Assembly: GCA_944391725.1 (NCBI GenBank)
Contig: CALXUQ010000013.1
Coordinates: 1-38,979 of the forward strand
Length of the DNA stretch: 38,979 bases
DNA from: an uncultured Alphaproteobacteria bacterium
GTDB lineage: Bacteria > Pseudomonadota > Alphaproteobacteria > RF32 > CAG-239
Direction: 5' to 3'
A program made the translations under genes and the position numbers. Below, one piece after another: positions 27,885 through 28,509 of this stretch; position 1 is the first letter of the stretch; every line of letters starts with the position of its first letter. The notes under the pieces were generated by a model, which was given only the letters and a program-made list of their open reading frames with translations, was not told the origin of the DNA and ran no database searches.

Positions 27885-27961
27885 GGGGGCGTAGTTCAGT
27901 TGGTTAGAATACATGCCTGTCACGCATGGGGTCGCGAGTTCGAGCCTCGTCGCTCCCGCCA
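27885..27961 (+). tRNA. tRNA-Asp (GUC)
   Basis: A 77-nt cloverleaf can be drawn: acceptor stem GGGGGCG/CGCTCCC (one G-U pair), D arm with GTTCAGTTGGTTAGAAT, anticodon stem CATGC/GCATG enclosing CTGTCAC with anticodon GTC, variable loop GGGTC, and T arm GCGAG-TTCGAGC-CTCGT. Discriminator G and CCA are encoded (27958-27961). The anticodon reads Asp codons GAC/GAU. It has its own promoter, and its last 20 bases (27942-27961) are the left end of a 254-bp tandem repeat downstream. Confidence 0.97.
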
Positions 27962-27968
27962 TTAAAAC

Positions 27969-27992
27969 AGCCGGGTTTATCCCGGCTTTTTT
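27969..27992 (+). terminator. Rho-independent terminator of tRNA-Asp
   Basis: GCCGGG (27970-27975) pairs with CCCGGC (27981-27986) around TTTAT and is followed by six T residues; a flanking A-T pair extends the stem. It lies 8 bases beyond the CCA end. Copies recur at about 28223-28246 and 28477-28501. Confidence 0.88.
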
Positions 27993-28045
27993 GTGGCCTG
28001 GACCGACGCGGTCGAAGGAGGGACCCCGGTCGCGAGCAAATGGGT

Positions 28046-28074
28046 AAAAAAACTGACTAGATGTCAGTTTTTTT
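28046..28074 (+). terminator. Second hairpin terminator in repeat unit 1
   Basis: A perfect 12-bp stem, seven A then CTGAC (28046-28057) with GTCAG then seven T (28063-28074), around a TAGAT loop. It has the form of a bidirectional terminator and recurs in unit 2 at 28300-28328. Confidence 0.75.
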
Positions 28075-28084
28075 AGACTTTTGA

Positions 28085-28144
28085 AAAGAACTTGTTAATT
28101 TGCGCGTCCGCGAGAGCGAGACAAGCAAATGTTACAAGTACTTT
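28085..28144 (+). ncRNA. Long GAGA-capped hairpin element, copy 1
   Basis: A 60-base region folds into one long interrupted hairpin: AAAG/CTTT, ACTTGT/ACAAGT, ATTTGC/GCAAAT, then GTC/GAC and CGC/GCG closed by a GAGA (GNRA-type) loop. The regular stacking over some 25 pairs argues for a selected RNA or DNA structure. It recurs unchanged in unit 2 at 28339-28398. Whether it is transcribed is unknown; the preceding terminators make read-through from the tRNA unlikely but not impossible. Confidence 0.5.
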
Positions 28145-28195
28145 GACCGAAGCGCAGTTGTTGAGCGTTTAGGCGCGAAACTTACGGAGCAAGAA

Positions 28196-28449
28196 GAGCC
28201 TCGTCGCTCCCGCCATTAAAACAGCCGGGTTTATCCCGGCTTTTTTGTGGCCTGGACCGACGCGGTCGAAGGAGGGACCCCGGTCGCGAGCAAATGGGTA
28301 AAAAAACTGACTAGATGTCAGTTTTTTTAGACTTTTGAAAAGAACTTGTTAATTTGCGCGTCCGCGAGAGCGAGACAAGCAAATGTTACAAGTACTTTGA
28401 CCGAAGCGCAGTTGTTGAGCGATACCTCGCGAAACCTACGTAGCAAGAA
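28196..28449 (+). repeat. 254-bp tandem repeat, unit 2
   Basis: Same layout as unit 1: 20-nt tRNA-Asp tail copy (28196-28215, not a functional tRNA since the 5' part is absent), terminator, second hairpin, long hairpin (28339-28398) and tail. Differences from unit 1 are confined to one short stretch near the right end: a six-base block (TTTAGG in unit 1, ATACCT in unit 2) and two single changes. Confidence 0.95.
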
Positions 28450-28509
28450 GAGCCTCGTCGCTCCCGCCATTAAAACAGCCGGGTTTATCCCGGCTTTTTT
28501 TGTGGCCTG
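28450..28509 (+). repeat. Partial third repeat unit (tRNA tail + terminator)
   Basis: The first 60 bases of the unit occur a third time: the 20-nt tRNA-Asp tail followed by the GCCGGG/CCCGGC terminator with one additional T, ending at GTGGCCTG, after which the sequence is unique. It therefore bounds the array as the right-hand direct repeat. Confidence 0.93.

Follow-up and report, generated by a model that had tools for sequence, protein, structure and literature searches.

Probable RtT-type units capped with the host tRNA tail, in tandem behind tRNA-Asp and at other tRNA genes of a gut alphaproteobacterium

The window analysed here is the whole stretch of 38,979 nucleotides from contig CALXUQ010000013.1 of an uncultured alphaproteobacterium (GCA_944391725.1), a 1.57-Mb metagenome-assembled genome (MAG) of 78 contigs whose relatives named below are likewise gut Alphaproteobacteria MAGs. 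It contains a tRNA-Asp(gtc) gene, found by both ARAGORN and Rfam (RF00005), whose 20-nt tail GAGCCTCGTCGCTCCCGCCA occurs three times, each time followed by the same terminator (Table 1). Tandem Repeats Finder (TRF) reports a single array (27942–28509; period 254, 2.2 copies, 97% matches, score 1078), so that program and sequence agree with the initial annotation of three tail and terminator copies at an exact 254-bp spacing. Unit 2 shares 97% identity with unit 1, and the third copy ends after its terminator, at 28509. Directly 3' of the terminator lies an imperfect reverse complement of the tail, hereafter the anti-tail.

Table 1 Coordinates of the array behind tRNA-Asp (window positions) and sites of a further repeat family.
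Feature	Position	Strand	Evidence
tRNA-Asp(gtc), CCA encoded	27885..27961	+	ARAGORN; Rfam RF00005, 63.3 bits
Tail copy 1, the final 20 nt of tRNA-Asp itself, T-loop to CCA	27942..27961	+	sequence; TRF
Unit 1, 254 bp: terminator, anti-tail, class I structured body, tail copy 2	27962..28215	+	TRF; fold z -4.98
Unit 1 intrinsic terminator-like hairpin: A-run / GCCGGG..CCCGGC / T-run	27963..27993	+	sequence; fold
Unit 1 anti-tail, predicted P1 5' strand; imperfect reverse complement of tRNA-Asp tail	27994..28008	+	fold; own tail is top match among the genome's tRNA tails
Inner terminator-like hairpin P3	28045..28074	+	two-sided pair changes across genera (helix 4)
Unit 1 class I core, helices P4 and P5	28079..28200	+	covariance model R2, 91 bits; sequence itself in model
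Tail copy 2, P1 3' strand of unit 1	28196..28215	+	sequence; TRF
Unit 2, 254 bp, tail copy 3 at its end	28216..28469	+	TRF; 97% identity to unit 1
Unit 2 class I core	28333..28454	+	covariance model R2, 82 bits
Tail copy 3	28450..28469	+	sequence; TRF
Truncated unit 3: terminator and first bases of anti-tail	28470..28509	+	TRF; sequence
Repeat family CGGCAGGTGCG..GCAGGCAGCGCCTGAGGCATCAGTTAGTTGCTT, among its sites	G000:C14:23769-24003, C46:8228-8321, C6:45502-45586, C24:25247-25321		

From one CCA to the next tail copy, a unit consists of a terminator hairpin, the anti-tail, a structured body and the tail copy. The window unit has a predicted fold of -97.9 kcal/mol (z -5.0 against shuffles) in which the anti-tail forms a helix with the tail copy. 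A homologue in a different genus (G102) gives a clean multi-branched fold (z -7.2) with the same closure. Over ten units of the type found in the window (class I), one of them at a tRNA-Pro, 70.6% of cells are paired compared to 37–40% in slid controls, a share that is somewhat flattered by a reference structure taken from one member; the two-sided changes seen in 32 pairs, mostly of the inner helices, are unaffected by this choice. Since the tails are nearly constant in this set, the closing helix was tested by comparing own with swapped pairings, and own anti-tail:tail pairing was better (p 0.0008; 24 units at different tRNAs), the match of anti-tail to own tail being clear in some units and generic in others. 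In a second type of unit (class II, see below), a T-stem-like strand pairs with the tail copy (p < 5e-5). The predicted class I fold, closed by anti-tail:tail pairing, has covariation support. Class I cores lie in sense orientation at Asp, Gly(ccc) and Arg(tct), and inverted relative to the tRNA at Thr(cgt), Lys(ctt), Gly(gcc), Leu(taa) and, weakly, His (L071, L072, L073, L092, L099). Anti-tail and tail could serve as inverted repeats. Inspection by eye revealed no clear terminal inverted repeats in the units.

To examine the whole genome, each tRNA's own tail was sought downstream of it, with the tails of all other tRNAs as the control. The own tail was top-ranked with a score of at least 9 for 13 of the 38 tRNAs, nearly all copies lay 170–280 nt downstream, and own-tail copies were far commoner than those of other tRNAs at the same places. 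One of these matches, Leu(tag) with a score of 9, sits in apparent coding sequence and is probably due to chance, while Trp and Gly(gcc) fall just under the threshold, yet have units. Covariance models placed class I cores near Asp (two), Gly(ccc), Gly(gcc), Leu(taa), Lys(ctt), Thr(cgt) and Arg(tct), and weakly His; class II near Ser(tga), Arg(ccg), Trp, Val(tac), Met, Leu(cag) and Leu(gag), and weakly Pro(cgg). A third class of unit occurs at Gln(ctg) and Ser(gct). Counting all three classes, roughly half of this genome's tRNA genes have or once had units, and not every one of these has a recognisable tail copy.

The arrangement extends to relatives. The six genomes of the genus that are well assembled, this one among them, all repeat the tRNA-Asp tail downstream, and the tail recurs at a spacing of 180–320 bp in at least 23 genomes from at least nine genera of the family; where the downstream sequence was read, the bodies vary by genus on a common plan. 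An element limited to the tRNA-Asp locus is ruled out by this recurrence at other tRNAs and in relatives. The initial annotation had held that a segment existing only here, with equal copy number in all relatives, would speak against mobility, and had proposed a search for further copies; units are found at other tRNAs and in relatives, they vary among those relatives, and intact empty sites exist. Bodies grouped by genome rather than by tRNA to a weak degree (identity 0.835 versus 0.827), and this comparison was not used as evidence. Beyond the downstream units, we observed a class I core directly upstream of tRNA-Met (L079:1320-1440; G000:C21), and the further repeat family listed in Table 1 occurs near some tRNAs as well as elsewhere in the genome.

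The class II units allowed the relation to a known RNA to be examined. The class II core TGAGCGCCNGTGCAACTCAAGC was found in 36 of the 153 genomes of the order, in seven genera, and in none with a reversed-pattern control. Taking one locus per genome (n = 30), a tRNA lay directly upstream in 26 and the motif GAGTA could be located in 25 of these loci, 147–165 nt past the CCA. The unit ended in GAGTA-NN-[16-nt tail of the upstream tRNA] in 24 of these 25, comprising 10 kinds of tRNA, where a match was defined as at least 12 of the last 16 nt of the host tRNA; the host tail was matched at 16/16 in 16 loci, and swapped tails reached 12 in 11 of 520 comparisons. Two class II units with a Ser(cga) tail (L277 and L279) stand without an upstream tRNA behind similar sequence ending in CTACACCGCCA, which is perhaps the edge of a larger element between tRNA and unit.

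RtT RNAs are mostly known from gammaproteobacterial tRNA operons, and we know of no explanation for their origin. The E. coli rttR unit behind tyrV has the geometry of class II and ends in GAGTA-AT-CCTTCCCCCACCACCA, its four tail copies being spaced by 178 bp; proK of E. coli K-12 has an own-tail unit in which the terminator is repeated with the tail, as in the window, and units with their own tails also follow Klebsiella tRNA-Pro and Providencia tRNA-Lys. The Rfam RtT model (RF00391; gathering score 45 bits) scored 97–138 bits on the full-length enterobacterial units examined (E. coli controls 134–138) and had no match in the window or in the class II loci up to an E value of 5. Conversely, a covariance model built from alphaproteobacterial class II units only (R1) matched, among the loci searched, all RtT copies of E. 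coli (tyrV/tyrT, proK) and Klebsiella (tRNA-Tyr, tRNA-Pro), with E values of 1e-7 to 3e-3. It had no other match in 74 kb, and the Providencia copy was missed. Because R1 finds the E. coli and Klebsiella copies, we regard class II as a homologue of RtT. No R1 match was obtained in class I, no RtT match with the class I model R2, and no family in an Rfam search of the window unit; since neither Rfam RtT nor R1 finds class I, the window's units are by analogy RtT-like in plan and placement only. The initial annotation had stated that no named class has this build. The RtT RNA (RF00391) does have it, and one class here is RtT-homologous.

Several observations concern RtT itself. The E. coli K-12 proK unit (NC_000913.3:3708616-3708692; L293) is without ncRNA annotation in its RefSeq record, yet is matched by R1, and in another E. 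coli strain the proK locus reaches 100 bits with the Rfam RtT model. RtT matches are present in 4692 of 5426 E. coli genomes, at 1 to 10 places per genome. Published work describes RtT as an RNA that tyrT and other tRNA operons release and that affects the stringent response (PMC4986893; PMC2965389), and rtT has been likened to attenuators associated with BIMEs (PMC2965389).

Comparison of relatives reveals how tRNA ends differ in their units. At tRNA-Pro(cgg), G000 is empty, with accgcacggcgg directly after the tail; in G004 the junction has a class I unit of 264 bp whose tail copy is perfect; and G002 has a class II unit there, followed by accgcgcggcgg (loci added for the tRNA-Pro and tRNA-Trp comparison were annotated with ARAGORN before use). 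The junction, CCA|accgc, is the same in all three. tRNA-Trp is empty in G004 and occupied in G000, where the old terminator has been displaced to the 3' side of the tail copy, and at Ser(tga) in G004 and Arg(ccg) in G002 a new unit lies between the tRNA and an older unit. Gains and losses of units therefore fall right at the 3'-terminal CCA of the tRNA. These cases support insertion at the CCA; deletion between tail repeats can account for an empty site taken singly, but it does not account for unrelated units sharing a junction.

The units carry no gene, and a dedicated recombinase for them was not found in this genome. The check for a tyrosine recombinase elsewhere in the genome, proposed with the initial annotation, yielded two enzymes only, one XerC-like and one XerD-like, which rules out a resident integrase. 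A single Y1 transposase was detected, with 122.9 bits against IS200 (cut-off 55) and 29 against RAYT (cut-off 80); this sole Y1 enzyme being an IS200, a RAYT was ruled out. No reverse transcriptase was detected in this genome and three relatives. Annotated phages gave no match to class I; plasmid matches to the class I query were short, and the listed ones all fell at its tRNA end; plasmids gave no match to class II, and neither class pattern was matched in IMG/VR. On these searches an origin from plasmids or phages was rejected. Two GenBank records labelled 'Bacteriophage sp.' (L286, MT837473.1; L287, MT836861.1) resemble bacterial chromosome contigs with tRNA and have class II-type units behind tRNA-Met and tRNA-Gln. 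In relative G004, a tyrosine-integrase element is present at tRNA-Leu(taa) (L226:3681-8186; G004:C11), encoding a 399-aa tyrosine integrase and a 753-aa protein that by eye is primase/helicase-like. Its att runs from the anticodon region to the CCA, much longer than the tail of the units, and the element lies between the tRNA and an RtT-like mini-array, beside the array and not inside it.

Taken as a whole, the array is probably two and a fraction RtT-type units behind tRNA-Asp, belonging to a kind of tail-capped structured unit that is gained and lost at tRNA ends. Each unit begins directly after a CCA with its own terminator, followed by an anti-tail, a non-coding structured body and, at its end, the host tail in copy, with the anti-tail expected to pair with the tail copy and close the fold. 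The RtT case suggests, by analogy, that transcription of the tRNA passes the terminator and that the units are then probably set free as small RNAs; a strong terminator ahead of a unit may silence it. Copy number would change by recombination between the repeated tail and terminator blocks; an RNA cassette amplified through tRNA-tail recombination had already been offered as one option in the initial annotation, and it fits the tandem copy number at tRNA-Asp. The tail of a new host, on the reading we favour, would be acquired by an insertion that duplicates or copies the target tail. The window's class I has its plan, its sites and its swapping in common with the RtT-homologous class.

An assembly artefact or a chance repeat could be suspected in a fragmented MAG in which several tRNA-proximal contig ends fall on such units, as would be expected if repeats interrupt assembly. 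An artefact is an unlikely source of the array because independently assembled genomes of many species share the layout, as do finished E. coli genomes, and chance is ruled out by the swapped-tail controls; as an account of the units' existence, this explanation is refuted and hardly credible, while the exact number of units at tRNA-Asp in this MAG is not certain. It is also unlikely that there is no mobility at all, the units being old parts of tRNA transcription units that expand and contract through their repeats while gene conversion homogenises the bodies and leaves the tails. The near identity of tandem copies, the 1–10 copies of RtT per E. coli genome, the co-variation of tail and T-stem with the host tRNA, and an equal likeness of bodies between different tRNAs of one lineage and the same tRNA across lineages are all consistent with that account; precise empty sites and unrelated classes, each with its own terminator, at one junction in close relatives are not, nor is an Asp-type class I body at tRNA-Pro in G004 (a unit included in the model).

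Two further explanations accept mobility and differ in the enzyme. We regard it as rather unlikely that the units are miniature integrative elements, for which an integrase supplied in trans by a phage, a satellite or Xer would recombine the tail of an excised circle with the tRNA tail and so build tandem accretions. Tail duplication, precise empty sites, accretion on the tRNA-proximal side and the tyrosine-integrase element of G004 are what such elements would predict, but the recombinases of this genome are only XerC/XerD-like, the att site of the real element is much longer, and conservative att by att recombination would not, on a move from one tRNA to another, yield one body behind 10 kinds of tRNA with the 16-nt tail of each host. 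This last point bears on the mobility model of the initial annotation, of which one part holds and the other does not: the tail repeat marks where small non-autonomous units have come and gone at the 3' ends of tRNAs, whereas a classical att site of a tyrosine recombinase fits poorly because one body behind 10 tRNA kinds carries each tRNA's own tail. Insertion by a Cas1-type integrase or a transposase, with the tail copy as a target-site duplication, is likewise rather unlikely in its own right and is at the same time a possible enzymology for the insertion that we favour. It would account for tail copies that match the host tRNA and not the donor, for new units placed beside the tRNA, and for a usual copy of 16 nt, close to the casposon median of 15 nt, some casposons lying at tRNA 3' ends (PMC4046053); it is at odds with the lack of clear terminal inverted repeats, and simple duplication does not explain why the T-stem copy and the anti-tail match the host too.

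Comparison with known systems places the units nearest to RtT (rttR, RF00391; tyrT-tyrV, proK), which likewise stands behind tRNAs as tandem or single units, each ending in the host's tail, with a closing helix of anti-tail and tail and, at proK, a terminator repeated with the tail. The differences are that the class I of the window is undetected by RtT models, and that this single genome has units of no fewer than two main classes on roughly half of its tRNAs. The classes replace one another at identical junctions, and some bodies of class I are inverted. With ICEs/IMEs, P4-like elements and tycheposons the units share a direct repeat at the tRNA 3' end, precise empty sites and tandem accretion, and they differ in being ~250 bp long, without genes or a dedicated integrase, with a shorter repeat and with one body behind many tRNAs; among the hallmarks of integrative elements we thus found the tRNA 3'-end repeat and the empty site (Pro(cgg), Trp), and no cognate integrase. 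In CRISPR arrays the newest insert adjoins the leader. Casposons share insertion at the tRNA 3' end and a target duplication of similar length (PMC4046053) and are, by analogy, the best mechanistic parallel for the host-derived tail copy, while the units differ from both casposons and CRISPR in being tiny, structured and without clear terminal inverted repeats. REP/BIME sequences mobilised by RAYTs are similarly short, palindromic, non-coding repeats near terminators; the units are instead tail-capped and tRNA-bound, and the Y1 transposase of this genome lies below the RAYT cut-off.

What lies behind tRNA-Asp is a known kind of thing, RtT-type tRNA-tail units, whose form, spread and diversity as seen here were not found described in the searchable open literature. 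Tentatively, RtT might be the best-known member of an unrecognised and widespread class of miniature elements that move among tRNA genes and gain the host's tail, often with T-stem and anti-tail, through a target-copying insertion undescribed for bacteria. In a gut alphaproteobacterium, RtT-homologous and RtT-like units stand behind roughly half of the tRNA genes, as a rule with the host's tail, and are gained or lost right where the tRNA ends. This recasts RtT from a local curiosity to a widespread tail-matched element, and two questions become testable: by what route a unit obtains a new host's tail, and what effect tail:anti-tail pairing has on tRNA processing or on any RNA that the tRNA transcript releases.
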